Origin: Selenomonas sp. TAMA-11512
GTDB taxonomy: Bacteria > Bacillota > Negativicutes > Selenomonadales > Selenomonadaceae
Direction: 5' to 3'
Length of the DNA: 64,000 nt
Assembly: GCF_037076525.1 (NCBI RefSeq)
Contig: NZ_AP029018.1
Span: 930,001-994,000 of the forward strand
The translations under genes and the position numbers were made by a program. Positions 18,589-41,576 of this stretch are shown piece after piece. The first letter of the stretch is position 1. Every line of letters begins with the position of its first letter. Under the pieces are notes generated by a model. It had not been told where the DNA came from, searched no databases, and worked only from the letters and a program-made list of their open reading frames with translations.

Positions 18589-18945
18589 ATGGAATACGAA
18601 GGAACGCGGGCGGACAAGATGCGGCGTCTCGCCGACAGGAAAATTGAACAAAAGGACGGTGAAGCGCTTCTCTTTCTGCTGCATTCGAAAGAGGGGCGCT
18701 GGTTTCTTATGCGGCTTTTTGAACAGTGCCATCTCACGGGCGGCGGCACATTCCCAGAGGGAGATGTTCACCGTCTCTTAGTCATGGAGGGAGAGCGGCG
18801 CGTGGGACTGCACATACAGAATCTTATCGCCGCAAGCATGGAAACGCTCGCAGAAAAGCAGCGGGCGGAGAGTGAATACTATGCGTTGATGAATGATCTG
18901 AAAGCTATGATTGCATCGGCGGAGCGTGAGGAGGAAACAGAATGA
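18589..18945 (+). CDS. Bbp19-like phage protein
   Basis: 118 residues. LLHSKEGRWFLMRLFEQCHL, a Gly-rich bend, and GERRVGLHIQNLIAASMETL match the Bbp19 family, which always lies between portal and scaffold genes of BPP-1-like phages. The role is unknown. ATG 18589 is used, since the GTG at 18583 overlaps the AGGAGG site. It overlaps the scaffold gene start by 4 bases. Confidence 0.85.
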   Translation: MEYEGTRADKMRRLADRKIEQKDGEALLFLLHSKEGRWFLMRLFEQCHLTGGGTFPEGDVHRLLVMEGERRVGLHIQNLIAASMETLAEKQRAESEYYALMNDLKAMIASAEREEETE

Positions 18946-23950: not shown

Positions 23951-24485
23951 GTACACAATCAAGACAATCACAGGGGAGAAGCAAAAGGAAGAGCTTGCAC
24001 GGGCGCTTATAAGGGACCTTCGTGCGGCGGATCGGAGGGAACTTAAAGCGAGCGCTGCACCGAATGGCTCCGTAGAAGATGAGGTTCATGGCTCTATGCT
24101 ACTGTCAGATGAATTGTTTGCCGCTTATAACGAACAGGGCGCTTTAATTGCCGTTTGGGGATATCGAAAATTCGACAACTCTCCGGGTGTTCTGATCTGG
24201 TGTCTCGGAACGGATCGCATACGGTCGTTTCGCCGCGCCTTTGCTGTGGAGTCAAGGCGGATTCTAAGGGACTGGGCGAATCGGTACGGCATGCTCTATA
24301 ACGCGGTCGGAGCGTTCAATGACGCAGCGATTTCATGGCTTATATTTTGCGGGGCGACATTTCATGAAGAGATGATGATCGGCGGGGAGCGGTTTATCCC
24401 GTTCACGATCGAAGGAGAAGGAGGGCAGTATGATGTGCAGTGTAATGGCAGGGCTTACCGCGCTGGGCGGTTATTTTCAGTATAA
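23943..24485 (+). CDS. Internal virion protein A-like (GNAT-fold, T7 gp13-like)
   Basis: 180 residues from GTG 23943, overlapping the nozzle stop. The middle segment (LFAAYNEQGALIAVWGYRKF, VESRRILRDWANRYGMLYNA, WLIFCGATFHEE) has the strand-helix pattern of a GNAT acetyltransferase, as in the DUF2833/internal virion protein A family of T7-like phages. No clear acetyl-CoA P-loop is visible, so it is probably structural or a degenerate enzyme. Confidence 0.72.
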   Translation: MARYTIKTITGEKQKEELARALIRDLRAADRRELKASAAPNGSVEDEVHGSMLLSDELFAAYNEQGALIAVWGYRKFDNSPGVLIWCLGTDRIRSFRRAFAVESRRILRDWANRYGMLYNAVGAFNDAAISWLIFCGATFHEEMMIGGERFIPFTIEGEGGQYDVQCNGRAYRAGRLFSV

Positions 24486-25089
24486 GCAGCAGGCGGCACA
24501 GATACAGTCGCAGGCAAATGCACAGGCGTCTATGTATCGCGCACAGGCAGAGGTAGCGCAGCAGAATGCGCGTATAGAGAATCGAAAGCAGGAGCAGATT
24601 GCGGACAACTATGCACAGAAGCAAGAGGAGCTGCGGTCCCGCAGGCGCCTGATTGAAGGTTCGCAGCGTGCGGAGACGGGCTCTGCGGGACTTGGATTCT
24701 CCGGCTCGGCGATGGATATTCTCTCTTCCGGCTATGATGCGTACGGCAAGGACGCTATGAATCTGCTGATGAATCAGCGTAACGATAACTACAACTCACG
24801 TGTCACGGAAACGAATTATCTCCATCAGGCGAATCAGGCGAATCAGGCGGCGGGCAATGTGCTTGCGCAGGCGAAGCGGCAGAAGCGAATGCTGGGGATT
24901 TCGACGATTCTCGGAACGGCGGCAAGTGTCTACGGCGCAGCGCAGCCGTGGAAGAGTGCAGGCCGTACGGCATCCGCGTCAAGCAATACGAGCGCTTTCT
25001 ATCAAAGCCCGAACTTCGGCGCAATGGGAATGGCGCAGGGGCTGAATAAGCCGTTTTATCAAGGCAAGATGCTCGGTTATCGGTGGTAG
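24430..25089 (+). CDS. Internal virion protein B-like (T7 gp14-like)
   Basis: 219 residues. A hydrophobic start (MMCSVMAGLTALGGYFQYKQ) leads into a long Gln/Ala-rich helix (about 17-75, AAQIQSQANAQASMYRAQAE) and a Gly/Ser segment (GSAGLGFSGSAMDILSSGYD). A second hydrophobic stretch lies near 155-170. This is the usual pattern of gp14-type proteins that are ejected and form the outer-membrane channel. It overlaps the previous gene by 56 bases and has AAGGAGGG before the ATG. Confidence 0.8.
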   Translation: MMCSVMAGLTALGGYFQYKQQAAQIQSQANAQASMYRAQAEVAQQNARIENRKQEQIADNYAQKQEELRSRRRLIEGSQRAETGSAGLGFSGSAMDILSSGYDAYGKDAMNLLMNQRNDNYNSRVTETNYLHQANQANQAAGNVLAQAKRQKRMLGISTILGTAASVYGAAQPWKSAGRTASASSNTSAFYQSPNFGAMGMAQGLNKPFYQGKMLGYRW

Positions 25090-25098
25090 GTGACGACT

Positions 25099-27459
25099 AT
25101 GAAATTCTCTTCTTATCAGCCGGTTGTAGAACGAAATACGATCAATCCTCCGGCGCTACGTACGTCGACGGACCTGAATGTGTATAAGAACTCGAGTTAT
25201 GACGACGGAGAAGGATACGGACGCATGGCGGCGGCCATCGGACAGGTCACGAAGGTCTTGGCACAGCGGCAGGACGATATGGACGCGGCAGACGTGATGA
25301 AGGCCCGCAATGAGATGATGACGAGTCTCACGGAACAGCTCTACGGGGAGAACGGCCTTTTCACGACAGGTGTCGGTGAGAATGCGAAGGGGCTCATGCA
25401 GCGCACGACGGACGCGATCAACAAGACGTACGAGGATGTCAGCAAAAACTATAACGGCCGCGTGCGGTATGCGCTCAAGGGCAATCTGAGTGAAAACATG
25501 GCAAACTTCCAGCGGATTGCCGCTTCAAAGGAAATGGCGGAAGGGAAAGAGGTCGCGGCGGCTACGTTCTCCGCGAATCTCGCAAGTAATGTGCAACAGG
25601 CGGGGCTTACGTGGCAGGTCAAGGGTTCTCCGGAGCTCTATATCAAGAATAACGATGTGCTTCTGCAGGCCCGGGCAAAGAGTGAGGGATGGTCGGGAGC
25701 GCAGTACTCGGCGGCACGGCGCAGTATGGTGTCGGATGTCGTATCCGCTGTAGTCAGTGCGGCGATGGAAAGCGAGGACTATGAGACGGCCGCTTCTACG
25801 CTTCGTGAGCACAGGAGCGAAATGGAGCAGGCGGACTATTGGAAGTATCAGAAGGAAATCAACCGCAAGCAGCGGGCAAAGGATATGGATACAGAGGCAA
25901 GAGAGATATTCAACATGCCCGGTGTGTGGGATGGAAAGCGCTTCAATAAGGCGAAGGCGTTTGAATATATCGACGAGCGGTATGGCCAGAATGTGACAAA
26001 GGGGATTGCGGGAGGCGTCGGGTGGAGCGGAGATGCTGGAATCGACAGCGAGATCAACGACGCCGCGCAAGAGTTCGGCGTCGATCCGGCGCTTGTCGCC
26101 GCTATTGCGAGCGTTGAGACGAACGGATATGACCAGAGCGCGGTATCGTATGTAGGCGCAAGAGGAATCATGCAGCTCATGCCCGGGACAGCGGCAGGAC
26201 TGGGCGTCAACCCGGATGACCGCCGCGACAACATCCGGGGCGGAGCAAAGTACCTGCAAGGGCTCTTGAAAGAGTTCGGCGGCGATATAAGACTTGCGGC
26301 GGCCGCCTACAATGCAGGGCCGCAGGCCGTAAAAGATGCGGGCGGCGTGCCGAACTACGCGGAGACAAAGGCGTACGTCGAAAAAGTGCAGAAAGCCTAT
26401 GAGGAGAACAAGAGAAAGAGTGCATCCGGCGGCGGAAATGCTCTCGGCGTGACGCCCTACGATATGGGCACACAGAACGGTATATCCAAAGATCGCCTGC
26501 AGCCGAAGTGGAAAGACGGCGTCCTTGGCACTATCGGCGGTGTATTGAAGGACGTATTCGGTGTGACGGGCGTCATCTCATCGACGGGACGAACGCGGGA
26601 ACACAATTGGGAAGTGGGCGGCGTCGAGAACTCGAAACACATCGATGACGGAAACGGCGGCGACGCCGTGGACATCGTCCTGCCGGACGGCGTGGATAAA
26701 GCCGCAATCGTCGAATACTTCAAGAGTACGGGAGCGTTTAAAGAGGTTCTCTTTCACAATGTGACAACGGGAGAGCACCTGCATTTAGGTGAGTACAGAG
26801 GCGGGCTTGGCAGCGGTGGGAGCCGTACGGTCAGCGCGTATGACCCGGAGAAGCGTGACCGAATGATGAAGCTTGTCTCGGCCATTGGAGATGATTATGA
26901 GTCAGCGTATAAAGAGCAGCGCAATCAGTATTTCGACGGGATCCTGCAGGCGGCGCAAGATGCCGGCAGCTACAGCGGGGCCATATCGATATTGAACGGG
27001 CAGGACTTAACGATGCAGGAACGGAACCATCTCGAGAATGCGATTACGGCTTACTATAAGCCGAATGCGAAAAAGAGCGGCGGATCAGATGGCTCGTACA
27101 AACCTACGGCCGACAAGGTTCGGTCGGCTTACGTTACAATGCAGAAGTTTGAGGCACGCTTACAGACGGATGGAAAAGTTTCTACGGATCAGCTTATCTC
27201 GTATCGAGCCGCTGCGGACGTTCTGCAGGCTGAAGGATATCTTGACGAGGAATATGAGAATATCCTTAACGATCAGGCGACGTGGTCAAAAATCACGGAT
27301 GCGATGGAATCCCCGAAGGGCGGCATATTAAAGGCACAACAAGCGCTTATCGGGGCAGGACTAGATCCTCTTACTGCCTTGGCGGTACTTTCTAGGGTGG
27401 ATGTGAGGATGACCCCGGCTTTCTATCCGGAAGAGGATGAGGAAGAAGAGGAGCAGTGA
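25099..27459 (+). CDS. Ejected virion protein with lytic transglycosylase and M15-like domains (gp16-like)
   Basis: 786 residues. Residues ~321-434 are an SLT lytic transglycosylase domain: FGVDPALVAAIASVETNGYD with the catalytic Glu, GARGIMQLMPGTAAGLGV and LAAAAYNAGPQAV. Residues ~488-568 resemble an M15/D-Ala-D-Ala peptidase-like fold: ISSTGRTREHN, SKHIDDGNGGDAVDIVLPD and EHLHLGEYRGG with H..D..H-x-H zinc ligands. The rest is helical and ends in a Glu-rich tail. In T7 the equivalent gp16 enters the periplasm and opens peptidoglycan for DNA ejection. Two enzyme folds in one protein would cut both glycan and peptide links. ATG 25099 chosen over GTG 25090. Confidence 0.88.
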   Translation: MKFSSYQPVVERNTINPPALRTSTDLNVYKNSSYDDGEGYGRMAAAIGQVTKVLAQRQDDMDAADVMKARNEMMTSLTEQLYGENGLFTTGVGENAKGLMQRTTDAINKTYEDVSKNYNGRVRYALKGNLSENMANFQRIAASKEMAEGKEVAAATFSANLASNVQQAGLTWQVKGSPELYIKNNDVLLQARAKSEGWSGAQYSAARRSMVSDVVSAVVSAAMESEDYETAASTLREHRSEMEQADYWKYQKEINRKQRAKDMDTEAREIFNMPGVWDGKRFNKAKAFEYIDERYGQNVTKGIAGGVGWSGDAGIDSEINDAAQEFGVDPALVAAIASVETNGYDQSAVSYVGARGIMQLMPGTAAGLGVNPDDRRDNIRGGAKYLQGLLKEFGGDIRLAAAAYNAGPQAVKDAGGVPNYAETKAYVEKVQKAYEENKRKSASGGGNALGVTPYDMGTQNGISKDRLQPKWKDGVLGTIGGVLKDVFGVTGVISSTGRTREHNWEVGGVENSKHIDDGNGGDAVDIVLPDGVDKAAIVEYFKSTGAFKEVLFHNVTTGEHLHLGEYRGGLGSGGSRTVSAYDPEKRDRMMKLVSAIGDDYESAYKEQRNQYFDGILQAAQDAGSYSGAISILNGQDLTMQERNHLENAITAYYKPNAKKSGGSDGSYKPTADKVRSAYVTMQKFEARLQTDGKVSTDQLISYRAAADVLQAEGYLDEEYENILNDQATWSKITDAMESPKGGILKAQQALIGAGLDPLTALAVLSRVDVRMTPAFYPEEDEEEEEQ

Positions 27460-27480: not shown

Positions 27481-30400
27481 ATGGCATTTGATTACAAGGG
27501 CTTTGCGGAAGCCGTAGATGAATTTACGGCGAACAGTCGAGCGGAACGAGAAGAAAAAGAGAAGAAACCCACAGAGGATGCGAAGCCGTGGTATGGAAGA
27601 GTCTATGAATGGGGCAGTGATGTCGCGGGAGCCGCATACAATGCCGGAGCGGGCTTTGTAGACGCGTACGGGCGATATGCGGGCGCGGAAGTGGAGCGCA
27701 GGAAGAATCAAGGCGAATACTACTACACGCCGTACGACAACAAGGAGATATACACGCCTGAGGTCACCGAAGCGAGCAGGGAGCTTGCCGGTGCGACGGC
27801 AAACTTGGTTTTGTCTCCTGCAGGTGCGGCAATAGCGCCGATTCGTGACTTCGTCGGTGAGAAAATCTACAAGAGCGCCGAAGAGGGAAGCGGTCTCGCA
27901 CAGGATTTGATGCAGACGGAGACGTTTGTCAATTACTTCATGAAGGATGAGGATAAGCTCAAAAAGGCGCGCGAGATTGAAGCGAATACGGGAATCCCTG
28001 CGGATTCTTTCATCGACGATGATGTTGCGTATAAGCAGGCGTTGAAGATCGATGACTATAAGCGCAAGAAGCGGGAGCTCATGTCGGAGGACGCCGCTAT
28101 GGAGTCGGTGTGGAAGGAGTTCCCGGAGATTCGCGACATCGCAAAGATGAATCCAAGGGATGCGGCCCTCGCTCTCCACGACATTGAATCTGTGCGCTCA
28201 ACGCGTAGCATTATAGAGACGTTTACCCACTTCTTAGAGGTGGGAAATAAGCGTCTGGAACTGAATAATCTCGGGTACAAGATGCTCGAGGGCAAGGCGG
28301 ATGCGAATGATATGCAGCGCGCCGCGGACTTGCGGAAGATGCTTGAAGACGACAAGAAGGAATTGCCGTCTTTTTTTGATGATCCGATTCTTGCCATTGT
28401 GGGCAGCGCGACGGAAAGTCTGCCGCAGGTGGCGGATGCGTTGGCGTCGCCGGAGACGGTGCGCGACGGAATCCTGATGGCAGGCGCGACGTACGCGGCA
28501 GGTGCCATGTATGGAGCGGCGGCCGGGACGGGCGTTCTTCCGGTTGCCGGTACGGCAGCGGGCGGCGCTGTAGGCGGCGGTCTGGGCGCGGCAGGCGGTT
28601 TCCTTGCGGGTGCAGGACGCTCTGTCTCTGGTCGTCTCGGCATGTCGGGCCTGCGGTATGCTCTCGGGCAGCTGGCGAGCGGCGGCGGGCGCGCGTCGGG
28701 GGCGGCTATACTGCAGTCTGCCGCAGGGCGGAACGCAATCGGGCGCGGGGTACAAATCGGTACATACGAAGCTATGGCACGGCAGATGTCAGGCGAGCAG
28801 TATCTTGAACTTGGCGAGATGAAGGACAAGGACGGGAATGCTCTCTTGTCGGAGGATGATCGTCGTTTTTGGGCGATGGCGACGGGTTCGCCTATGGCGC
28901 TTATCGAGTCGGCGAGCTTCGGGTTAGATGCAAGGCGTCTTCTCGGCTCTTCGGTCTTTGCAAAGGAAGCGATAAAGGCTGTCGTTGACAATGCGAAGGG
29001 GAGTGTTGCGCGGCGTGAATCTCTGTCGGCGTTCGCCCGTAAAGAGGTGGGCGGCATTCTCAAGGTCGCCGGTGCGGAGTCGGCGGAAGAGGCTGCGCAG
29101 TCTGTTGTCGGCGATCTCGCGCACAATCGAATCGTTTCCACATCGAACGGGCGGGCGGCATATAAGGTATACAACGTGAAGGATATGGCGGCGAATGCGT
29201 TTGTGGCCAGTGTGTCCGCATTCCCCGCAGGGCTTGGATTCGGCATCATGACCTCCGCCGGTTCCGTTCCGGGGATTGTTCGTCATGCGCGAAGGATGTC
29301 GTCGGAAAATGTGCGCGAGGATATGGCCGTGCAGAGGACGATGACGGGGACGGTCATGCTCGAACGTCTGCAGGAGGTGGTGTCTTCGGCGAAGCTTAGG
29401 CAGACGGCACCGGATGTGCAGCAGAAAATCATCCGATCGCAGGTCAACGGGACGGGATTTGAAACCGCTTATATCGATACGCAGACGGCGATGGAAAAGG
29501 AAAACGGCCTTGCCGACCTCAAGGAGGTGGCAAAGACCGCAGGGATTGAAAATGAGCAGCTGGAGGCGACGATAAGGAATGGCGGGCATCTCTATGTGCC
29601 TGTTGAGCGCTACGCGCAATCCGCCGCGTCTCCGGAGCTTCTTGAGTCGGTGTCGTTCTCACCGGAGACGGACTCTATAGCGCGGGTGAAGAAGAACGCG
29701 AAGTCCTTGGCTGAAGCTGTGGAGAAGGCGCAGAAGGAGGCTGTGGCGGCACGCGTGGCCATTGTCGACGCGATTACCAATGAATGGTTCCCGGAGGCAC
29801 CGAAGCACGCGAATGATGCTGTAAAGACGCGCCGTACGCAGGAGCGGGAGATGGCGATTGCCGCGATCGCACAGGATCAGGAAAGCCCTGCCAACGGTTG
29901 GCGTCAGCTGTATAAGGCGTGGGTGGCGGAGCGGGACGAGCTCTTGAAGCCCGCGCTGGATGCATTGCGCCGCGGTATGGGGAACGGCGTGGATATTGTG
30001 CAGACGGGAGAGGATGGACGCGGCGTCCGTGTCTCGAACAATGAGCCGTGGTATCAGGATTTCTACAAGAAACATGGCCGCGCACCGCGCAAGTCGGAGC
30101 TCATAGATTTGGCGTATCTGCTCACGATAGGCGATGTAAATGCGCCGAAGGTGGAGGGGTGGATACCGTCCTCGAAGGAGGAAGCGGACGCGATGGCGGG
30201 CGCAAAGGGGCAGCTTGATGAGCTGAACCAGAAGATCAAGACGATGGAGAACATCAAGGATCGCATGATGCAGGTGGATGCCGCGGAGATTAGGGGTTCG
30301 GCAGGATTATCTCCGGAGGCTTACAGTGTGTATCGTCAGATCATGGCGGCGCTCAAGGCGATGGGCGGCAAGCAAACGAAGGTAGCGCGCATGAATGCGC

Positions 30401-33400
30401 TTATCTTTGCACACCATGCGGATCAGTATGCTCGTGTCATTCGTGAGAAGCAGGGCACGGAATACACGGCGATGGACTACTTTAAGAATACGTTCGGCCT
30501 GCGCTACGGCGGGAAGTATACGGAGGAGGGGGATGCTCTCCAACAGGCGGTAAGAGAAGGCTTGAATCTTGATGAACAAGTTCATGTTGTTAATCTTGAC
30601 GTGCTGACCAACAATTTAAAAGGAAAAACAGATCAAGACATTCTCAATTATATATCAAAAGCAAGTCTGTTGCCGGAAGTTCCAACGGCTGATTTTCAAG
30701 CATTGGTAGGGCTTCCCAAGGATAGCGATTCCTATGGGCAGAGGCATTTGGTGCGTGGGAATGCAAATCGATCTTCGGACAATAGAACCGCGCGGAATGT
30801 TACACTTTCAAACTTCGCTGACATTGCAAAAAATGCTGTTGTTGTTGAGGTTGTTCCGAATGCTAAAAAAGCCCCTTTAACAGGGCTCAAGGGAAAGAAA
30901 CGCCAGGCTCAAAAACGGAAGAATCAAATATCAAATTACTACCGCATCATGGTTCCCGTGCAAATGAATGGACATATCAAGACGTTGGTTATTGTGGCTG
31001 AGGAACATGACGGAGTTGTCTCCACGGGAAGTGTCCCTGTAACTGCATACGAAATCTACTATGCAAAAAAGCCCCCTCTCGCCGCTACACCACGTCCGAA
31101 GACAGGCGTTAGTGCGGCCGAGGAGGAAGCTCCTTTGACTATCAGTATACGCGATATGCTTGCTGGTGTCAAGGGCGCGGATGGGAATGTGTATGCGCAG
31201 AGTATGACAGGATTGTCTGACATAGGGCTCAAGGAAATGCAGCTCCGTATTATTCAAGAAACAAATCCGATGCATGACGATATACATACCGGAATTCGCT
31301 CGGTAGATGACATTCTCACGGCGAAGGAAGCCTTTGAGGAAAAGGTGGATGAAGATGAATCCTATGTCTATCCGGATTTTACGGAGTCCGACGGGAAAGC
31401 TGCTTTAAGGAGTGGTAAAGTCACGATTTATAGCAGCTATCCGATTACACCGGGCGTTTTTGTTACGCCAAGCAAGATGCAGGCGCAGGATTATGCAGAA
31501 AACGGCAAGGTCTACTCTAAGAGAGGTTCTGTGAAGGATGTCGCGTGGATTAACAGTGATGAGGGGCAATATGCGCCTGTAAGGACGGAAAGCTATCAAC
31601 AATCCGCATGGCATGGGACGCCGCATAACTTCGAAAGGTTCCTGTTATCCATGATTGGAACTGGAGAGGGAGCACAGACACATGGGTGGGGGCTGTATTT
31701 TGCAAAAAATCGGGAAGTATCGGAGTGGTATAAAGATGTATTGGGCGGGATTCAACAAAATATTATCCATGCCGGCGATAAAACGTACGTCATGCACCCA
31801 AGCGGTTATCGCATAGAGAAAAATAGCGGAGATGCACTACAAGAAGGTTCTTCGATAGAGATTGCTCTTTCTGCGTTTGAGGACAACGATGGAAATGTAG
31901 AGAATGCAATTAGGGAGACTACGGATTATCTTGCCCAAATGGAGCGTATAAAAGATTCCGATACGCGTGAAAGAAACAACGGTCTCATACGCGAAGCTCT
32001 GCGGATTTTGAAAGAAGAATCAAATGTGTGGAGGTTGGAAAAGAAAAAATCGAGTCTCTACCACGTCGAAATCCCGGATGATGGTGTCCTGCTTGACGAG
32101 CAAAAGACCTTGAAAGAGCAGCCGAAAATTGCTGCACTGCTCGATAGGTATGGAGAGGAAATCGGCGACTCAAGCTACATGGCGCGAGAATTAGGCGAGA
32201 ATATGACGGGAAGAGAGATTTATGAGTACATTTCATACACTGAGCAAACTCTCGGGGCCGCTAATGGTGATAAGGCTGCGTCTGAATATCTAAATGCAGC
32301 GGGCATCAAAGGTATCACCTATAGGGGGCGGCAGGACGGCCGCTGTTTCGTCATCTTCGACGATAAGGCCATCTCCATCATCGAGAAATTCAATCAGGAG
32401 ATGCAGAAGGAGGTTTACGGCGAAATCTTCAAGGAGCAGGGCAAGCGTATCATTCAGCTATTTGAGGGCGCGAATGAGTCAACGATGCTCCATGAGATGG
32501 GGCACATGTTCCTGATGGACTTGGAGGAGCTTGCGAAAATCGATGAGGCGTCTGCGGATGACCTTGCCACGGTCAATGCGTGGACGGAGTGGAAGGAAGG
32601 CTCCGCAGAGGAATATAAGGATACTCCATGGGCGGAGAAGTTCCGTGCCCACGAGCAGGCTATCCTCGACGCACAGAAAGCGGGGGACGAGGTTGCCTTG
32701 AAGGCTGCAATGGATCGCTGGAAGCAGGAGCGATTCGCACGCGGATTTGAGCTGTATCTGTACGAAGGAAAGGCCCCATCCAAGTCGCTGCGCGCTGTAT
32801 TCCGTCGGTTCAAGATGTTCCTCGGAAAAATATACAGGTTCCTTAAAAGTGCGGGCGGGAAGCCGTCGGCGGAGGTTGAGGCGGTCATGGGTCGCATGCT
32901 TGCCTCTCAGGAAGAGATTGCGGCGGCGGAGCTTGATGACAGGTTCCGCCCGATTGAGAATGTAATCGGCGTCGATGGCATGAAAAATCTCTTCGGGGAG
33001 AATGTATCCGATACGTATCAAAAGTGGCTCGATGAGGCGCGGGCGGACGCGGAGGATCGTCTGCTTGCGGAGGTCATGAAGGACCTCAAAAAGGAAGCAA
33101 GGCGGGAGTTTCGAGATGTGGTGGATGCAGAACGCACCCGAAAGCGTGAAGAGCTTGAAAGGGAACCCGTCTATCTCGCGGAGGCGGCGCTGAAGAGTGA
33201 TGTCAAGGGCGCGGAGGCGGTCATTGGTCATTGGTTCAAGTCTATGGACGAGTACCGCGAGGAGAGGGCGAAGCGAAAGGGTCTGGAAACGGAGCTCATG
33301 GAACACATGGACGCGTTCTCAAAGGGACTGGAAGAGAAGCTCATACAATCGCACATGTCGGAGGAGAACATTACAAAGGCGATGCAGTCGCCGGAGTCGT

Positions 33401-36400
33401 ATCATCGCCGTGTGGCGCTCGAAATGGTCGCCATGCGCGAGAAAGACAGACTGATCCGCAACATCAATGCGACGGCCATGCAGGGTGTAGAGGATGCCAT
33501 CAAGGACGCGCCGGAGGATGTCAATCTGCAAGATAAGAGTGACGCCGCGGCAAAGATCATGGAAGCAATCCGAAACCTGCAGGGCGGCGGCAAATGGACA
33601 GAGGAGGAGTATAAGACGCTTGAGCGCATGATTCGCGCGACGGGGAAGAAGGAGCTCAAGAAGGAACTCAAGAAGCTGCAAAAAAAGACATTCGAACGGG
33701 TGCAGAAGGTCGTCCAAGGGGAGAATGAAAAGGCGTGGAAGCGCAAGGAATTTGACCGCAAGGTGGCAGAAAATGACCGGCTTGTCCGCGAGCAGGCGCG
33801 GCTCATTCTCGCAGATCGTCCAATCGGTGAGTCGGCGAATGTGAATTTCTTCCGGCGTCAGGAGCGCATGCACGCGCGGAATGCCGCGAAAGCGCTCGAA
33901 AAAGAGCAGTGGAATGTCGCCTACGCGGAGAGGGAACAACAGGTGCTTGCCAGTGCCTGTGCACTGGAAGCGGCGAAGAATGAGAAGAAGGTTGAAGAAC
34001 TCAAGCGAGACATACAGAAGAAGCTCGGCGCGCGTACGGTGCGTATCGCGTCGGATGAGCGATACTGGCTGCACCATATCGCGTATCTCTTAGGGCTGAA
34101 AGCAAATGACATGGAGAAGCCGGAGGGAGTTGCCGAAATCGGGGAGCTCTTTTCCGGATACAAGGAGAATATCGATCTTGACGCGGACGCGCCGACGGAA
34201 ATTATCGAACTCCTCAAAAAGGAGGACGGCAACTACAAGAAGATGACGGTCGGCGAGTTTACGCAAGCGGTGAATATGCTCAAGGTGCTCTATACGATCG
34301 GCCGCGACAAGAACCGCATGCTCAGTATGGACGGCAAGGACTTCGCTGATGTTGTGCATGAAATTCTTGCATCGGATACAAGCCTGACACCGGAGGACGT
34401 CGTGCAGCATCCCGTATCGCCGGATACGGGCGGTACGGGGTATAGTGAATGGCTCGCGAAGATACCGGGTATTGGAGAGCAGATGGCCGCCCTCGGACAG
34501 AAGGGTTCAATGCACCTGATGAAGCCGGAAGTGCAGATTCGCCTGCTCGGCGAAGAGGCGCATAAATACCTTTACGGCACATATGAACGGGCGCAAATGC
34601 GGGAGTCTGAATTGCTTGGCGACGCGCAAATGGAACTGGAGCGCATCCTGTCTGTCTACTCGAAAAAGGAGCGGATGGGCTGGAAGGATCGAAACATTGA
34701 TGTCGGAGGGGACAAACTTAGCAAGGAGAACATCCTTTGCCTCGCGCTCAACTGGGGCACGGAGACGAACTTTAGGCGAGTCATGGACGGCATCGGCCAG
34801 AAGCTCGACGTACACAAGGTACTCACAAAACACATGACAGAGCGCGACTGGAATGTTGTGCAGCAGATTTGGGACTTGGTGGATACATTCTGGAAGGAAA
34901 CGGCGGAAGTAGAAGAAAAGCTGAACGGCTCGCGCCTTGGCAAGGTTCCGGCATCGCCTTTCCAAATCAAGACAGCAGACGGGAAGGAAATATCTTTGCG
35001 CGGCGGATACTACCCGCTGAAATACAATGCGGAAAAATCGGCACGCGCGCAGGAGAGCGAGGTCGAGGAACAGGCGAAAAAGACGCTGGCCGGCGCTCGC
35101 GTCTTCGGTACCGGGCGAAGCCACACAAAGGAACGCTCGAAGCATGATGTGCATGAGCCGTTGCTTCTTGAGTTCCGCGTCCTACAGGATCACGTATACA
35201 ACGCTTCGCACAATATCGCGTTCCGCATTGCCGCGCGTGATGTGCATCGTATTGTGCGAAACTCGGAATTTAAGCAGCATGTCGTGTCTACATACGGCAT
35301 GCCGTTCTGGAAGTCGCTGGATCAGTGGGTGTTGGACACGTGGGCAATCGCCGCCGACGGCAGTACGGATCAGGCGGCAAGCGATCTCAGTCGGACAATG
35401 GCGGCGTTTCGCCGAAACTCTACGATGGCGATTATGGGGTGGCGCATGTGGCCTGTCATTGAAAATGCGTCGAACATCGGGCCGATGATGGATAAACTGG
35501 GCGCTGTTGAGACGAATGCGGCCATCGCGGATTACTACTCAAACAAGAGCCGAATGGATGATCTTCTCAACAAATCCATCTTCATGCGTGACCGCATGAA
35601 CAACATGGAGCGCGATCTTAGAAACGACAAGAGGCTCTTTGACCCGACATACGCACCTGTTGAGTTTTTGCGGGATAATGCATATTGGGCGCTTGCACAG
35701 ACAGACCTTATGCTCTCAAAGCCGCTCTGGTGCCGAACGTACAAGAATGCTTTCCCGGAAACGCTTGCGGCGGTCAATCGTGAAAACGAGCTGAATAAAC
35801 GAACGTATCAGGCGGCGCAGGACGAGGTCTCGCGTCTTCGGGCGGAGGTATATGACCTCAAAAAGGAGCTGGCTTATCTACAAGATGAGCAATCGGAACG
35901 CAAGCAGATGAATCCCGAAGCAATGCGGGGCTCAGAGTATGCCGGGTGGTCGGACTATGAAGTCGCGGAAAGAATCCGTGAGACGGAGGAGAGGATTGCG
36001 GAAAGGGAAAAAGCATTCTATGAAGCGGGGTTCAAACTGGAACGCGCGTCGGAGCTGCCTATATTGGAGGGGCGTGAGATCATCAACGAGGCGGAGCTGC
36101 GTGCCGTGCAAAAGGCGGACGAAGCTGTGCGCGACGTATTCGGTTCCGGGCAGACGAAAGACCTCGCGGCGATTCAGCGTTCACGCAATGAAGCCGTCAA
36201 GATGTTTACATCGTTTTATTCGTTCTTCAATACGCAGTTTAACGCGATTCTTGAAGCGCATTTCAAGGGCAAGTATGACGCGCACGGATACAAGTATATG
36301 CGTGTGTGGATGCCGCTTGCGCGGTCAATTCTGCTCCGCATCGTGCTTGTCTCATTCATCGGCTCGGTTCTAAAATCTTTGCTCGGTCTCGAGGGCGATG

Positions 36401-37053
36401 ACGAAAAGGATAAATACAGGACGGTTGTGGACCCGAAGACAGGGAAGAAAACAAAGGTGGAAATCCCATTGGAAGAGCGTTTTGCAAAGGTGCTCGGGAA
36501 GAATCTTCTCTCTACGGCGACGGGCACACTTCCGGGTGTCCGAGACTTTGCCGGGCTCATCGGCAGTGCTGTATTTGACGGCACGACTTACGGACGCAAC
36601 TTTGAGCTCGGCTCTGTGATCACGCGCGGAGCAAAGCAGGTGCAGGCAACCATAGACCTTATGGTCAAAAAGGGAGAAGCGGAGCTTGAACGCGAGGAGA
36701 AGGAGGCGGCGGAACGCGCGAAGCTCAAGAAAATGACGAAGAAGCAGCGCAAGGCGTACGAGGAGGCGAAGAAGTACAAGAAGCCGAAAAAAGAGGTCGG
36801 CTATGTCGATGTTGCAAGGTCTGCCGCACAAGCGGCCAGTACGTTTACTGCGGCGCGTTACGGTGTGACAAACACGTTGACGGACGGGGTGTTTTCTATT
36901 GCGCAGTTCGTCGAGGACATGATGGAGACGGACAACTACTACGATCCGGACATTCGCAATGTCCTTCGAAGCGTATTCTTTGATAAGAAGCTGCGCGCGA
37001 AGGAGCCGCCGCCGAAGCCTCCGAAGAAGGAAAAGAAGAAGGGGAGAAGGTAG
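27481..37053 (+). CDS. Giant polyvalent virion protein with ADP-ribosyltransferase and zincin modules
   Basis: 3190 residues. Visible parts in order are: a charged N-terminus; a Gly/Ala-rich hydrophobic region (about 332-380); a second hydrophobic patch (about 530-590); an LPD3-like/nuclease-type domain (about 1085-1200, ending YYRIMVPVQMNGHIKTLVIV); an ART-PolyVal-like ADP-ribosyltransferase (about 1377-1635, WHGTPHNFE, GTGEGAQTHGWGLYFAKN, LYHVEIPDD, FVIFDD); a zincin HEMGH (1671-1675); long Lys/Glu coiled coils (about 1850-2190); and an LPD38-like C-terminus (about 2570-3080). Polyvalent proteins are packaged and injected with the genome to disarm host defences. The ART/LPD3 coding DNA (30540-32330) is visibly AT-richer than its flanks, suggesting a recently acquired module. 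It replaces or extends the large internal protein of BPP-1-like phages. Confidence 0.88.
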   Translation: MAFDYKGFAEAVDEFTANSRAEREEKEKKPTEDAKPWYGRVYEWGSDVAGAAYNAGAGFVDAYGRYAGAEVERRKNQGEYYYTPYDNKEIYTPEVTEASRELAGATANLVLSPAGAAIAPIRDFVGEKIYKSAEEGSGLAQDLMQTETFVNYFMKDEDKLKKAREIEANTGIPADSFIDDDVAYKQALKIDDYKRKKRELMSEDAAMESVWKEFPEIRDIAKMNPRDAALALHDIESVRSTRSIIETFTHFLEVGNKRLELNNLGYKMLEGKADANDMQRAADLRKMLEDDKKELPSFFDDPILAIVGSATESLPQVADALASPETVRDGILMAGATYAAGAMYGAAAGTGVLPVAGTAAGGAVGGGLGAAGGFLAGAGRSVSGRLGMSGLRYALGQLASGGGRASGAAILQSAAGRNAIGRGVQIGTYEAMARQMSGEQYLELGEMKDKDGNALLSEDDRRFWAMATGSPMALIESASFGLDARRLLGSSVFAKEAIKAVVDNAKGSVARRESLSAFARKEVGGILKVAGAESAEEAAQSVVGDLAHNRIVSTSNGRAAYKVYNVKDMAANAFVASVSAFPAGLGFGIMTSAGSVPGIVRHARRMSSENVREDMAVQRTMTGTVMLERLQEVVSSAKLRQTAPDVQQKIIRSQVNGTGFETAYIDTQTAMEKENGLADLKEVAKTAGIENEQLEATIRNGGHLYVPVERYAQSAASPELLESVSFSPETDSIARVKKNAKSLAEAVEKAQKEAVAARVAIVDAITNEWFPEAPKHANDAVKTRRTQEREMAIAAIAQDQESPANGWRQLYKAWVAERDELLKPALDALRRGMGNGVDIVQTGEDGRGVRVSNNEPWYQDFYKKHGRAPRKSELIDLAYLLTIGDVNAPKVEGWIPSSKEEADAMAGAKGQLDELNQKIKTMENIKDRMMQVDAAEIRGSAGLSPEAYSVYRQIMAALKAMGGKQTKVARMNALIFAHHADQYARVIREKQGTEYTAMDYFKNTFGLRYGGKYTEEGDALQQAVREGLNLDEQVHVVNLDVLTNNLKGKTDQDILNYISKASLLPEVPTADFQALVGLPKDSDSYGQRHLVRGNANRSSDNRTARNVTLSNFADIAKNAVVVEVVPNAKKAPLTGLKGKKRQAQKRKNQISNYYRIMVPVQMNGHIKTLVIVAEEHDGVVSTGSVPVTAYEIYYAKKPPLAATPRPKTGVSAAEEEAPLTISIRDMLAGVKGADGNVYAQSMTGLSDIGLKEMQLRIIQETNPMHDDIHTGIRSVDDILTAKEAFEEKVDEDESYVYPDFTESDGKAALRSGKVTIYSSYPITPGVFVTPSKMQAQDYAENGKVYSKRGSVKDVAWINSDEGQYAPVRTESYQQSAWHGTPHNFERFLLSMIGTGEGAQTHGWGLYFAKNREVSEWYKDVLGGIQQNIIHAGDKTYVMHPSGYRIEKNSGDALQEGSSIEIALSAFEDNDGNVENAIRETTDYLAQMERIKDSDTRERNNGLIREALRILKEESNVWRLEKKKSSLYHVEIPDDGVLLDEQKTLKEQPKIAALLDRYGEEIGDSSYMARELGENMTGREIYEYISYTEQTLGAANGDKAASEYLNAAGIKGITYRGRQDGRCFVIFDDKAISIIEKFNQEMQKEVYGEIFKEQGKRIIQLFEGANESTMLHEMGHMFLMDLEELAKIDEASADDLATVNAWTEWKEGSAEEYKDTPWAEKFRAHEQAILDAQKAGDEVALKAAMDRWKQERFARGFELYLYEGKAPSKSLRAVFRRFKMFLGKIYRFLKSAGGKPSAEVEAVMGRMLASQEEIAAAELDDRFRPIENVIGVDGMKNLFGENVSDTYQKWLDEARADAEDRLLAEVMKDLKKEARREFRDVVDAERTRKREELEREPVYLAEAALKSDVKGAEAVIGHWFKSMDEYREERAKRKGLETELMEHMDAFSKGLEEKLIQSHMSEENITKAMQSPESYHRRVALEMVAMREKDRLIRNINATAMQGVEDAIKDAPEDVNLQDKSDAAAKIMEAIRNLQGGGKWTEEEYKTLERMIRATGKKELKKELKKLQKKTFERVQKVVQGENEKAWKRKEFDRKVAENDRLVREQARLILADRPIGESANVNFFRRQERMHARNAAKALEKEQWNVAYAEREQQVLASACALEAAKNEKKVEELKRDIQKKLGARTVRIASDERYWLHHIAYLLGLKANDMEKPEGVAEIGELFSGYKENIDLDADAPTEIIELLKKEDGNYKKMTVGEFTQAVNMLKVLYTIGRDKNRMLSMDGKDFADVVHEILASDTSLTPEDVVQHPVSPDTGGTGYSEWLAKIPGIGEQMAALGQKGSMHLMKPEVQIRLLGEEAHKYLYGTYERAQMRESELLGDAQMELERILSVYSKKERMGWKDRNIDVGGDKLSKENILCLALNWGTETNFRRVMDGIGQKLDVHKVLTKHMTERDWNVVQQIWDLVDTFWKETAEVEEKLNGSRLGKVPASPFQIKTADGKEISLRGGYYPLKYNAEKSARAQESEVEEQAKKTLAGARVFGTGRSHTKERSKHDVHEPLLLEFRVLQDHVYNASHNIAFRIAARDVHRIVRNSEFKQHVVSTYGMPFWKSLDQWVLDTWAIAADGSTDQAASDLSRTMAAFRRNSTMAIMGWRMWPVIENASNIGPMMDKLGAVETNAAIADYYSNKSRMDDLLNKSIFMRDRMNNMERDLRNDKRLFDPTYAPVEFLRDNAYWALAQTDLMLSKPLWCRTYKNAFPETLAAVNRENELNKRTYQAAQDEVSRLRAEVYDLKKELAYLQDEQSERKQMNPEAMRGSEYAGWSDYEVAERIRETEERIAEREKAFYEAGFKLERASELPILEGREIINEAELRAVQKADEAVRDVFGSGQTKDLAAIQRSRNEAVKMFTSFYSFFNTQFNAILEAHFKGKYDAHGYKYMRVWMPLARSILLRIVLVSFIGSVLKSLLGLEGDDEKDKYRTVVDPKTGKKTKVEIPLEERFAKVLGKNLLSTATGTLPGVRDFAGLIGSAVFDGTTYGRNFELGSVITRGAKQVQATIDLMVKKGEAELEREEKEAAERAKLKKMTKKQRKAYEEAKKYKKPKKEVGYVDVARSAAQAASTFTAARYGVTNTLTDGVFSIAQFVEDMMETDNYYDPDIRNVLRSVFFDKKLRAKEPPPKPPKKEKKKGRR

Positions 37054-37820: not shown

Positions 37821-38978
37821 ATGGCAACGAGAAACTATGTGCCGCGTGCGACGGGTGAAGGAACAATCGGAACAAAGGAAAAGAAATGGAAGGCCGGATA
37901 CTTCGGAGAAGTACACGCAGAAAACACGTACACGAAGACCGAAGTCGATACGCTCAATGCGGAGCAAACAGATGCACTCAATAAGAGCATCGACGAGCTC
38001 AAGGAAGACGCGAAAAACGTCGTCGGGGTCATGCTTGCGAAAGAAGGATTGAAATCAGGAATATGGCTACACATCAACAAAGCCGGCAGAATGATTCCCC
38101 GGCCGGATTTTGATAACTTGTACCCGTGGAACGAGATTGAAACAGTCACGTTCGACGAACAGATCATGGTAAAAATCCCGAAGTTTTACCACAAGTACGA
38201 GAACAAGTGCCGCTGGATCAGTAAAGAGCCGCGCGAGGGATACCATTTGCATCCTGCGTTCATCCGCAACGGCGAAGAGAAGAGCTGCTTCTATATCGGC
38301 GCGTACGAAGCATACAACGATAACGGTGTCGCTGGAAGCGCGGCAGGAAAAACACCGTGGGTGAGCGTCGGCGGGATGGCAAGTGCAATCAACAGCTGCA
38401 CAGCGCGCAATACAAATGCCAGTGATCCGGATAAACGCGGATGGCACTTGCAGACGATCTACGAGAGAGCGGCAATCTCGCTTCTCATGCTCATAGAGTA
38501 TGCGACGACAGACATGCAAGCGGAAATCGGAAACGGTTCACAGAGCACGATAGTCGCAACGGGGACGTCCAACGCGAAGTGGCGCGGTCTATCCGAGTGG
38601 TGGGGAAACGTATGGGAACACACAGACGGTTTCAAAACAGACGCGGAGGGGAAAGCGCAGATATTCTCAAACGCGTGCGACGGCACATACGTGCAAACAA
38701 ACGTAACTGTAGCTGCCGGATGGATAACGGACGTATCCGTAGCGAAAGGCGAAGCGTACGACCTTGCAGACGTCTTTATTCCCGTAACTGCCGATGCTGT
38801 GGAAGTTAACGCGACATATGCGGATTACGCGTGGGCGGCGGCAAATAGCGTGCTGCATCAGAGCGACTGTTTTGGACACGGTACGTACTGCGGTCCGTTC
38901 TCGTTCGGTGCGAACTATGCCGCGACGGTCTCACTTACGTACCTCGGACTGCGCCTCGCAAAGTATGCTGACAATTAA
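37821..38978 (+). CDS. C-type-lectin-fold receptor-binding protein (Mtd-like position)
   Basis: 385 residues. The N-terminal half has a trimerisation-type stretch (about 30-75). The C-terminal half carries the FGE/C-type lectin pattern: WHLQTIYERAAISLLMLIEY, LSEWWGNVWEHTDGF, and the ending CGPFSFGANYAATVSLTYLG LRLAKYADN. This ending matches where variable residues sit in diversity-generating retroelement targets such as BPP-1 Mtd. The gene order (fibre, then lectin protein, at the end of the structural genes) is the same. However, no reverse transcriptase, avd or template repeat is visible downstream. It should be the host-recognition protein. AAGGAGG before the ATG. Confidence 0.85.
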   Translation: MATRNYVPRATGEGTIGTKEKKWKAGYFGEVHAENTYTKTEVDTLNAEQTDALNKSIDELKEDAKNVVGVMLAKEGLKSGIWLHINKAGRMIPRPDFDNLYPWNEIETVTFDEQIMVKIPKFYHKYENKCRWISKEPREGYHLHPAFIRNGEEKSCFYIGAYEAYNDNGVAGSAAGKTPWVSVGGMASAINSCTARNTNASDPDKRGWHLQTIYERAAISLLMLIEYATTDMQAEIGNGSQSTIVATGTSNAKWRGLSEWWGNVWEHTDGFKTDAEGKAQIFSNACDGTYVQTNVTVAAGWITDVSVAKGEAYDLADVFIPVTADAVEVNATYADYAWAAANSVLHQSDCFGHGTYCGPFSFGANYAATVSLTYLGLRLAKYADN

Positions 38979-39327: not shown

Positions 39328-39482
39328 AAAAGCAGCCGTTTATGATTCCGATCTATGCAGAGCTCATCCGGCTGGGGAGATATGCGAACAGCGAAGAGGA
39401 GAAAACGGAGGGGCAGAAAGTCGTCCCGGCAATCTACCGGGAAGATGTTGCGATGCATCTTGCGGAACACGCCGAAGGATAA
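39324..39482 (+). CDS. CD1375-like small phage protein
   Basis: 52 residues: MKKQPFMIPIYAELIRLGRY through VPAIYREDVAMHL. The IY..LI..G and VP...R..V..L pattern is that of the short 'CD1375 family' proteins found next to phage holins in Clostridia. Function unknown. The ATG overlaps the preceding stop (ATGA), with AAGGAGG upstream. Confidence 0.7.
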   Translation: MKKQPFMIPIYAELIRLGRYANSEEEKTEGQKVVPAIYREDVAMHLAEHAEG

Positions 39483-39507
39483 TGAAAGGCGGAGGAAAGG
39501 AGATCAT

Positions 39508-39981
39508 ATGCAGGATGCATTGATTTTTTTAAAAGGAATGATCCCGACGGAAATGCAGATGGTATGGGGGGCGGTGTGTTCCGTCGCAGGCGGAATCGCA
39601 GGGCATTTGCTCGGGTGGAATAATCTTGTAGAGACTCTGCTTGTCGCGATGGCGATCGACTATGTGACGGGCGTCCTCGCAGCATACCGCTACAAGAGGA
39701 AACACCCTAACAGCAAAAGGGGACCAAGTAGCCGAGTGGGGGCACTGGGCATTGTACGCAAGGTGTCTATTCTGTGCATTGTGGCACTGGCGCACTATAT
39801 CGACACGGCAATGGGAACATCGGCAGTACATACGATGATCGTCTGGTTCTATATCGGGAATGAAGGACTATCAATTATCGAGAACGCGGCAAACTCCGGC
39901 GTTCCGGTGCCGCAGAAGCTATGCGATACATTAGAACAGCTCAAGAACGAAAAAGGAGAGCGGGGAAATGACAAATCTTGA
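39508..39981 (+). CDS. Holin (phage holin family 1/TcdE-like)
   Basis: 157 residues from ATG 39508 (AAAGGAG upstream). Hydrophobic segments lie at about 17-36, 40-58 and 88-106. LLVAMAIDYVTGVLAAYRYK and IVWFYIGNEGLSIIENAANS GVPVP are the Holin_4_1/TcdE signature. It makes the membrane lesion that lets the amidase (40111) reach the wall. The C-terminus is charged, as usual. The longer frame from 39355 overlaps the gene upstream and is not used. Confidence 0.92.
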   Translation: MQDALIFLKGMIPTEMQMVWGAVCSVAGGIAGHLLGWNNLVETLLVAMAIDYVTGVLAAYRYKRKHPNSKRGPSSRVGALGIVRKVSILCIVALAHYIDTAMGTSAVHTMIVWFYIGNEGLSIIENAANSGVPVPQKLCDTLEQLKNEKGERGNDKS

Positions 39982-40105
39982 GTGGTGCGAGCTCTGGTCG
40001 AAGTACTACGCATTTTTGGCAATTGCAACGAGAACGGGATTCTTCGTGCCGGAGCTCAGAGCAATGGAAGAGCACTTGAAAAAGTGCAGACCGGAAAGGA
40101 GGTGA
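39968..40105 (+). CDS. Small hypothetical lysis-region protein
   Basis: 45 residues: MTNLEWCELWSKYYAFLAIA TRTGFFVPELRAMEEHLKKC and a PERR end. It overlaps the holin end by 14 bases and its own last codons contain the AAGGAGG of the amidase gene. It may be a short membrane-surface helix protein. Such proteins are common between holin and endolysin, but its role is unknown. Confidence 0.55.
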   Translation: MTNLEWCELWSKYYAFLAIATRTGFFVPELRAMEEHLKKCRPERR

Positions 40106-40110
40106 AGAGA

Positions 40111-40635
40111 ATGAAAGTGTTTTTAAATCCCGGCCATGCGCCGAACGGGATTCCGGATCCCGGAGCATGCGGCTGCGGACTCCGAGAGTGCGACGTAGCA
40201 AAGAGTGTCGCTGACCTCGTAGAGCACTATCTCACAGCGGCGGGCGTGGAAGTCGTCGGCAACATGCAGGATGACGACCTCTATACAATCACGAGTGTGG
40301 CCAACGCGAGCGAAGCGGATGTATTTATCAGCATCCACTGCAACGCATTTAACGGGAATGCAAAGGGTACGGAGGTACTCGTGTATCCCGGCAGCGCTGC
40401 CGGCAGGAAGCTCGGAAACTGCATTCAGCGTCAGATTGTCGACAGCATGGGTACGACGGACAGAGGGCTCAAAGACCGTCCAAATCTTTGGGTTTTGAAG
40501 CACACGGATATGCCGGCGGTGCTCGTCGAACTTGCGTTCATCGACAATGCCGGTGATGCAGTGCTTCTAAGAGACCGGCAGGATGACTTCGCGCGGGCGA
40601 TTGCTCGCGGCGTGACAGATTATGAGCTGATTTAA
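40111..40635 (+). CDS. N-acetylmuramoyl-L-alanine amidase (endolysin)
   Basis: 174 residues, a complete Amidase_3 domain. The zinc ligand His in VFLNPGHAPNGIPDPGA, a Glu in ECDVAK, SEADVFISIHCNAFNG with the second His, and the catalytic Glu in VLVELAFIDN are all present. There is no separate wall-binding domain or signal peptide, so it depends on the holin to reach the wall. It cleaves the amide bond between MurNAc and the stem peptide at lysis. AAAGGAGGTGAAGAG precedes the ATG. Confidence 0.95.
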   Translation: MKVFLNPGHAPNGIPDPGACGCGLRECDVAKSVADLVEHYLTAAGVEVVGNMQDDDLYTITSVANASEADVFISIHCNAFNGNAKGTEVLVYPGSAAGRKLGNCIQRQIVDSMGTTDRGLKDRPNLWVLKHTDMPAVLVELAFIDNAGDAVLLRDRQDDFARAIARGVTDYELI

Positions 40636-40987: not shown

Positions 40988-41129
40988 TTAGTGGATAAGA
41001 TGTTGATAACCCTGTTAATATAGTGTTGATAAGTGCAGGAAATGAGTTGACAATAAGGTAAATAATACATTATTATAGAGGTGTAGGATATGAAATTTTA
41101 GGACGACTCCTGTGGGTGGGGTGAGTAAT

Positions 41130-41576
41130 ATGGCGACAGTGTACGATGTAGCAAAGTATATTTTAGATAAATACGGTTCTATGTCTGCAATGAAGCTACA
41201 GAAGTTGATTTTTTATTCACAGGCAATGTCCTTAGTATGGGATGATATTCCTCTGTTTGAGGACGACTTTGAAGCTTGGCGCAAAGGCCCTGTTTGTCGT
41301 GAACTATACAACGCACATAAAGGGAAATTCATGCTCGACGACAGCACATTTCTCGAACCTTATCTAGTTTCGCCGTCTGCTTTGACAGATGACCAGAAAG
41401 AAACGATTGATGCAGTTGTGCGCTCGCTTATTGACGTAACGCCGTATCAGCTCAGCTGCATGACGCATAGAGAAGCCCCGTGGAAGGATGCACGAGGAGG
41501 AATTCCCGATACGAAGAACAGTGACGCAATCATTTCGAAAGAGTCGATGATGGAATATTATGCGGAACACTGGTAA
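41130..41576 (+). CDS. Panacea-domain (DUF4065/SocA-like) antitoxin
   Basis: 148 residues. DVAKYILDKYGSMSAMKLQK LIFYSQAMSLVW, FEAWRKGPVCRELY and the C-terminal helices match the Panacea domain, used by many toxin-antitoxin systems as a chaperone-like neutraliser. The promoter lies in the AT-rich gap at 40990-41100. The next gene, overlapping by 17 bases, is a likely toxin. It follows the lysis terminator and lies beside attR, so it is an independently expressed cargo gene. ATG 41130 rather than 41112. Confidence 0.85.
   Translation: MATVYDVAKYILDKYGSMSAMKLQKLIFYSQAMSLVWDDIPLFEDDFEAWRKGPVCRELYNAHKGKFMLDDSTFLEPYLVSPSALTDDQKETIDAVVRSLIDVTPYQLSCMTHREAPWKDARGGIPDTKNSDAIISKESMMEYYAEHW

Follow-up and report, generated by a model that had tools for sequence, protein, structure and literature searches.

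Organization of the locus

The stretch of DNA analysed here, referred to below as the window, comprises 64,000 nucleotides of the 2.59-Mb chromosome of Selenomonas sp. TAMA-11512 (NCBI RefSeq assembly GCF_037076525.1, contig NZ_AP029018.1, positions 930,001 to 994,000 of the forward strand) and contains a temperate prophage of the BPP-1 type. An open reading frame (ORF) on its plus strand (27481–37053), uninterrupted by any internal stop, encodes a giant protein of 3190 amino acids (aa), an ejection-type homologue of Bbp10 from Bordetella phage BPP-1, which combines several unrelated domains in one chain and adjoins virion genes, as do the polyvalent proteins of phages. From its N-terminus, the protein is composed of a part (27481–30546) with homologous stretches in the related loci L061, L063, L059 and L064, an AT-rich cargo cassette (30514–32390, with limits set by DNA homology to L061 and composition in accord), a zincin metallopeptidase (32398–33267) and a conserved C-terminal core (33268–37053) matching phrog_9880 with an expectation value (E) of 8e-145. 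A search of the PDB with the sequence of the whole protein returned nothing. Short [FYLI]-x-Q motifs, here termed joints, bound the modules of the cassette, and it is these joints, the cargo that they delimit and the adjacent zincin that are the subject of this analysis.

An AT-rich cassette exchanged among relatives

The initial annotation had proposed that the coding DNA for an LPD3-like and an ADP-ribosyltransferase (ART) domain is richer in A and T than its surroundings and was acquired as a module. A sliding-window check revealed that the GC content is indeed uneven, falling to 0.44–0.49 over 30500–32499 in 500-bp windows, compared with 0.55–0.66 in 28000–30499 and 0.53–0.57 in 32250–35499. 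At third codon positions the GC content (GC3) is 0.467 for residues 1012–1636 and 0.683 and 0.687 for the 600 codons flanking them on each side. The maximum-likelihood low-GC3 segment covers residues 1017–1606 (0.447 inside versus 0.673 outside), with a log-likelihood ratio of 50.7; in 60 codon shuffles, evaluated on a coarser grid, the ratio did not exceed 8.7.

Comparison with relatives located the insertion boundaries. DNA homology to L061, in the closest relative (genome G123), is lost at 30513 and returns at 32391; for L062, the second copy in the same genome, the corresponding positions are 30482 and 32395. Identity to G123 beside the cassette is 69–71% at the DNA level on both sides, with nothing alignable between 30513 and 32391, and 57–65% at the protein level in conserved stretches. 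At the place of the cassette, both G123 copies display matches to LPD3 and to a different ART-PolyVal type, and their cassettes are GC-poorer too (0.525 and 0.535 versus 0.63 in the upstream flanks). The closest homologue itself (L061, 3110–14168) is spread over two reading frames in that genome.

Other relatives carry further combinations at this place. The S. ruminis protein (L063) is homologous up to residue 1238 and then continues with LPD23 and DUF6782, a putative metallopeptidase domain matched at 26.9 bits, just below the cut-off of 27, while the slot of A. lipolyticus (L064) contains LPD23 and LPD3. L065 possesses the LPD3-like and ART modules and lacks d2, the module that lies between them in the window, and in L028 the LPD3-like module is joined directly to the ART, giving GNVYAQ/SAWHGTP (the slash follows the joint glutamine) where the window reads GNVYAQ/SMTG...SYQQ/SAWHGTP. 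In S. noxia (L067), an ART stub, AWHGSPYDFREFLL, which is whole in the relative L066, is followed by an ART of a different type (L067, 9058–10458) and represents the scar of an in-place replacement. The giant gene has two more copies in the TAMA-11512 genome, at about 1.35 Mb (a 3181-aa frame) and about 2.25 Mb (a 2243-aa frame), the former with MuF_C and a related ART in its slot; the same-genome copies, L059 and L060, differ in slot contents, with MuF_C plus ART and a weak LPD22 match in the upstream part. Within the ART, 68 bp of the window (32059–32126) are 93% identical in DNA to the paralogue L059, much of the domain being unalignable at that level.

Acquisition as a module is supported, since the breakpoints in composition and in homology coincide and the equivalent position holds different cargo in relatives. 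On the strength of these comparisons, the exchange of residues 1023–1639 as a three-module cassette (LPD3-like, d2 and ART), both as a block and module by module, is considered to be well supported.

Modules of the cassette

Of the two domains named in the initial annotation, both are real and both are divergent, lying below the Pfam cut-offs. The first module (residues 1023–1240, 30547–31200) scores 13.8 bits against LPD3 (PF18798) in the full protein, for a curated cut-off of 27, and is therefore termed LPD3-like only. Its fold matches, considered with the BECR fold of PBECR/BECR RNases in mind, are weak and resemble RNase toxins (BrnT, Z 4.1; 7vd7, 3.4; the CDI toxin 6cp9, 3.3); a comparison with the MuF_C region of L059 using hhalign was negative and gave no support to a relationship with MuF_C. 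The unnamed module d2 (residues 1241–1374, 31201–31602), which has a match to phrog_13543, lies between the LPD3-like module and the ART and was missing from the layout first proposed. It occurs also as short separate phage proteins and is absent from L065 and L028. A structure model of the LPD3-like and d2 modules has a mean predicted local distance difference test score (pLDDT) of 83.5, with fold matches too weak for naming; Foldseek found nothing in the PDB at E ≤ 0.001. A reading of d2 as a second ART, suggested by its motifs, gained no support from hhalign, the comparison with the ART alignment A2 being negative, and in fold d2 gave only a match to KptA of Z 2.8 over 64 residues.

The third module (residues 1375–1639, 31603–32397) is an ART, a call supported by a 26-row alignment and by its fold. 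It reaches 14.5 bits against ART-PolyVal (PF18760) in the full protein and 23.4 and 25.9 bits in cut-out pieces, for a curated cut-off of 31.2, and is accordingly filed as a divergent ART and not as a member of that Pfam model; a viral model named ART-PolyVal-like matches it with E 3e-13. The H–Y–D signature of the ART superfamily (Tox-ART-HYD2-like) is present as H1378, Y1406 and D1627, the tyrosine column being invariant in the alignment and the other two conserved in at least 90% of the rows. A cysteine preceding VIFDD was considered for the third catalytic position, as if that residue were missing, and was rejected, as the alignment shows a conserved aspartate instead. In the AlphaFold model (mean pLDDT 86), the histidine and tyrosine are placed in strands 6–12 and 37–40, and the aspartate two residues past strand 252–257. 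The best structural match is 9k3a_B, from the pre-ejectosome of cyanophage A4 (Z 10.8, root-mean-square deviation 5.4, 161 residues aligned), followed by tankyrases and diphtheria toxin (Z about 8) and MbcT (Z 7.9). Foldseek against the PDB alone also ranked 9k3a_B first, but with an E of only 0.01, and PDB sequence searches with A2 and with the zincin alignment A1 gave chance-level matches only.

The zincin

The HEMGH motif (32491–32505; H1671, E1672 and H1675) directly follows the ART, as first annotated. Its H, E and H are invariant in all 16 aligned rows of A1. The zincin is 30% identical to that of BPP-1 Bbp10 over 235 columns (E 2e-22), and by this homology to Bbp10 residues 700–1000, which are among the three seeds that define CLCA_X (PMC3650047), it belongs to the CLCA_X family and is a predicted peptidase. 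The HExxHxxxD pattern of CLCA_X appears as HEMGHMFLMD, with the aspartate one place later.

A reading of the zincin as part of the AT-rich insert was rejected, and the acquisition of ART and protease as one package is not supported. The zincin has the GC content of the backbone, its H, E and H are invariant in the 16 relatives aligned, and L063 and L064, among others, possess it without an ART match in their slots.

The joint motif

Four joints bound the modules of the cassette. Joint 1, Leu1020-Gln-Gln1022, precedes Ala1023 (30538–30549) and is matched by FAQ at the corresponding place in L061 and L062. Joint 2, Tyr1238-Ala-Gln1240, precedes Ser1241 (31192–31203) at the homology break of L063 and the module junction of L028. 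Joint 3, Tyr1372-Gln-Gln1374, precedes Ser1375 (31594–31605), and joint 4, Phe1637-Asn-Gln1639, precedes Glu1640 (32389–32400), close to where homology to L062 resumes (32395). The window joints are separated by no more than about 11 residues from the limits of homology to L061, L063 and L065; the L028 junction lies exactly at joint 2, and the DNA match to L062 stops 21 residues short of joint 1.

The [FYLI]-x-Q pattern was derived from a group of near-identical proteins, including those of Stenotrophomonas prophages, which differ by an insert of about 200 aa that follows DILFQ and has FFQ at its end, and was then sought at other borders. The comparison comprised 141 non-redundant proteins from at least 160 loci retrieved by a search with the zincin alignment, together with earlier loci. 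The pattern lies within 15 aa of 170 of the 343 non-redundant breakpoints, compared with a fraction of 0.313 at random positions in the same proteins (z 7.3), and within 5 aa of 28% of them (13% at random); of 12 residues tested, only Gln and, weakly, Gly (z 3.1) exceeded the control. With redundancy removed, the related pattern [ILVMFY][FYHW]Q[SGAN] has a frequency of 12.7 per 1000 Gln in the slot, the variable region upstream of the zincin, and of 4.1 in the core; with other central residues, the next-highest value in the slot was 8.2 (Asp) and the highest in the core was 9.0 (His).

Joints precede three unrelated module types. In proteins containing the zincin, ART modules have a joint at their start and mostly another at their end, most of those listed ending in YNQ, YYQ, FNQ, YEQ or similar. 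LPD3-like modules in such proteins begin with a joint in 10 of 11 cases, the exception being L063, and d2 does so in three of three, compared with none of three short separate d2 proteins (rows of the d2 hidden Markov model (HMM) that matched unrelated stretches of the same proteins being ignored). Upstream of the zincin, [FYLI]xQ is found 22–85 aa before HExxH in 72 of 76 proteins, these being the members of the 141 with HExxH inside set limits, and the next residue is Gly in 57. The joint Gln is encoded by CAG in 36 cases and by CAA in 25; the use of both codons points to a peptide motif rather than a DNA motif and, together with the low information content of most wobble positions, disfavours a recombination signal at the DNA level.

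The presence of a joint tracks that of the zincin. ART modules have a joint in 58 of 60 rows with a zincin in the same ORF and in seven of 38 without (p = 1.7e-16), and all 60 zincin-bearing rows have a Gln at most four residues upstream of the ART. The counts are 26/28 versus 2/6 (p = 0.004) for the loci from which the idea arose and 32/32 versus 5/32 (p = 4.8e-13) for later loci, which were retrieved with search patterns that do not contain the joint and represent the best 80 of 544 relatives. If a zincin is counted in any near-identical copy, the figures are 59/62 and 6/36, with L256 moving to the zincin side with a joint and L043/L068 without. The exceptions left on the zincin-less side include short ORFs and two rows with an ST..HExxH motif. 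In these two, L260 and L280, the HMM overlooked that motif; with such motifs included, the split is 34/34 versus 3/30 for the later set and 26/29 versus 2/5 (p = 0.029) for the earlier one.

A variable slot upstream of the zincin

The region preceding the zincin is variable across the wider set of phages. Among 204 pairs of proteins with a core identity of at least 50%, which are not independent of one another, the mean identity is 61–68% downstream of the zincin start, 29% at 100–200 aa before it and 43–47% at 300–800 aa before it. In 118 of these pairs, identity drops below 10% in at least one 100-aa bin of the 400 aa preceding the zincin, and 98 of these regain 30% identity in some bin further upstream; among the 42 pairs whose core identity reaches 90%, 10 are broken. 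In the 123 of the 141 proteins long enough on both sides, slot GC3 is below that of the following 600 codons in 109, by more than 0.1 in 42, and is in no case above it by more than 0.1. The cargo is diverse: Pfam identified ART-PolyVal in 29, LPD3 in 25, MuF_C in eight and zeta toxin in two of 130 slot segments, with PBECR1, PBECR3 and others as single cases (the 130 being drawn from 135 non-redundant segments, with L096, L093, L215, L141 and L232 left out owing to a size limit).

Prophage setting

The prophage genes follow the order terminase, head–tail adaptor, head, tail, internal virion protein, transglycosylase, 3190-aa protein, holin and amidase. On the plus strand, these include the terminase large subunit (15220–16548, phrog_2), a head–tail adaptor or portal-type protein (16822–18579, phrog_332), the major head protein (19606–20631, phrog_212), an internal virion protein (24430–25089, phrog_418), a virion transglycosylase (25090–27459, phrog_342 and others) and the holin and amidase (39355–40635). 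A short gene on the minus strand (1400–1798) looks like a phage-type repressor by eye. A tail-region protein (37821–38978) has a C-terminus resembling, by eye, a C-type lectin domain; a diversity-generating retroelement acting there was considered and set aside, as its template repeat was not found within the window. Scanning the window with Rfam and for tRNA genes returned no matches. Behind the lysis genes, a SocA/Panacea-domain gene (PF13274, E 6e-18) and an overlapping gene for a 149-aa partner (41112–42009) possibly constitute a toxin–antitoxin-like pair. Close to the likely prophage edge lies a UPF0236-family gene (43498–44928), presumably a transposase, followed at 45593 by the gene for a tRNA synthetase of class II (D, K, N type).

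Proposed mechanism and alternatives

Taken together, the joints, the zincin and the exchangeable cargo suggest that the giant protein is probably an ejected polyprotein with a plug-in cargo slot, cut at the joints by its own zincin. The protein would be packaged into the phage head alongside the internal virion proteins encoded next to it and enter the cell with the DNA. The zincin, whose family is related to the self-cleaving CLCA metallopeptidases (CLCA_X being sister to CLCA_N; PMC3650047), would cleave the polyprotein at the joints, either within the virion or once inside the cell, and so free the modules as separate effectors. With NAD+ as its substrate, the ART would then modify a molecule of the host, while the LPD3-like domain may act on RNA or as an accessory. 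As modules tend to share the same bounding joint, they could replace one another with no need for fresh cleavage sites, and this would account for the fast turnover of the slot. An anti-defence or host-takeover role, as initially suggested, is plausible from the position of the gene in a late operon adjoining internal virion proteins.

Several points weigh against this proposal, in which cleavage at the joints is a prediction. In 18 of 61 ART joints the residue after the Gln is Pro, which is unusual for a scissile bond and implies that the cut may lie elsewhere or not exist. The far-end joint of the ART is less regular, a Gln at both ends being found in 47 of the 60 zincin-bearing rows under a loose pattern. 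Five of the 32 zincin-less later modules have a joint (three of 30 when zincins missed by the HMM are counted), and so does one of the two zincin-less LPD3-like rows (L055, the other being L239). Conversely, L068 carries a zincin (332 bits) and reads KFS, not Q, at its ART; it stands among the zincin-less rows in the 60/38 count, where its partial copy L043 is the representative. Moreover, phage type and descent confound the association of the zincin with the joint, a gene at 18942 provides a possible other cutter, and the virion RNA polymerase of phage N4, which has a zincin-type domain, is described as being packaged uncut (PMC5512222).

Some of these points also favour an alternative in which the joints are flexible linkers of favoured composition kept by descent, with the zincin acting as an effector on host proteins and taking no part in processing the chain. 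Such an effector role is listed as possible for some of these peptidases by Iyer et al. (PMC5512222), the Pro found after the Gln in 18 of the 61 joints counts in favour, and related sequences dominate the counts, both labels clustering on the ART tree (16 and 20 changes versus about 28 and 30 when shuffled). Against it stand the enrichment of Gln alone, with weakly Gly, at breakpoints, the joint before each of three unrelated module types in zincin proteins, its absence from the three short d2 proteins and the even split of the zincin-less LPD3-like rows. Zincin-less ARTs, in addition, mostly differ at the joint from their nearest zincin-bearing relatives (48–69% identical over 70 aa), and we regard the linker explanation as unlikely. 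Low model confidence at the joints was dropped as an argument, since it is seen near joints 2–4 only and construct ends are always weak.

The joints might instead be cut by another protease, such as a head-maturation protease. The head protease of phage T4 trims internal proteins. The gene at 18942–19592 is named protease by PHROG (phrog_458, E 1e-31), and DarA of phage P1 is reported to be cut by the head protease Pro (PMC12810830). The 18942–19592 product nevertheless has no Pfam match and looks scaffold-like by eye, and the presence of the zincin predicts that of the joint. Where a YHE-type HExxH occurs in a row lacking the zincin, which is the case in five, KYS or KFS, of the form [KR][YF]S, precedes the ART in three, with KLS or KFS at its end, and none of the five has a Q joint. 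This alternative appears still less probable than that of passive linkers. Some other zincin-less proteins repeat [YF]S[IV] (NYSIG, AFSIS; L301 residues 935–2048, L283 residues 1040–1609), perhaps a second joint code used by another protease, although Pfam named no peptidase in the three such proteins searched.

Least probable, and in our view very improbable, is that the AT-rich segment is ordinary effector DNA of habitual composition which was never acquired, the homology breaks reflecting fast divergence. The GC3-poor slots of 109 of 123 proteins indicate that low GC may be a property of cargo, and the far-upstream DNA is somewhat low too (0.629 versus 0.68), with the slot below it in only 46 of 77 proteins (p = 0.002; the 77 of the 141 long enough on both sides). 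Fast divergence is at odds with DNA breaks that are sharp, with 69–71% identity on both sides, and with relatives whose content comes from other families or which lack a module wholly.

Relation to known systems and significance

Like the polyvalent proteins of Iyer et al. (2017; PMC5512222), whose account includes the class, its ARTs, LPD3 and zincins and the idea of autoprocessing, the window protein is a giant multidomain product of a late phage operon with an ART, an LPD3-like domain and a zincin; a cleavage-site motif and a fixed exchange slot are proposed here and are not described in the accessible text of that account. Domain reshuffling within one orthologous phage protein is also known from the mosaic H. 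pylori jhp1044 proteins, which instead involve PBECR and ParB domains, and for which neither a zincin-proximal slot nor a joint is described in the same text. BPP-1 shares the gene order bbp12-bbp11-bbp10 (internal virion protein, transglycosylase and giant protein) and a homologous zincin preceded by FYQ/G; Bbp10 has only 2052 aa, however, and the region in which it matches the window protein begins at the zincin and includes no ART. The accessible part of the CLCA_X description (PMC3650047), to whose Bbp10 seed the window zincin is homologous, gives no substrate or cleavage site. In cyanophage A4, an ART-fold domain is found in a virion-internal protein of the pre-ejectosome (9k3a_B; A4L_27, from residue 1424 onward in A-4L), with LYHGT and GTYF kept, but without HExxH and without [FYLI]xQ directly before the ART; the match supports the physical presence of ARTs in ejection assemblies. 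Alt of phage T4 is likewise an ART packaged in the head and injected, but differs in its R–S–E type active site and in being a separate protein (PMC5512222).

In the openly licensed literature, the joint motif, its link to the zincin and the slot beside the zincin were nowhere found described, subscription papers lying mostly outside this search, and all three are proposed as new on the basis of the sequence comparisons. Whether phages of several bacterial phyla share an injected self-cleaving polyprotein, with an organization resembling that of RNA-virus polyproteins, with CLCA_X cutting a uniform [FYLI]-x-Q, a universal two-joint cargo bay and other peptidases tied to [KR][YF]S or [YF]S[IV], is in our estimation evenly balanced. 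The idea of an acquired module was right in outline, and the joint grammar beside the zincin is the more interesting part. A specific joint that follows the zincin makes the self-processing proposal of 2017 testable residue by residue. With the motif, effector modules of phages that lack annotation can be delimited easily, and the slot is an obvious region in which to look for new anti-defence proteins.
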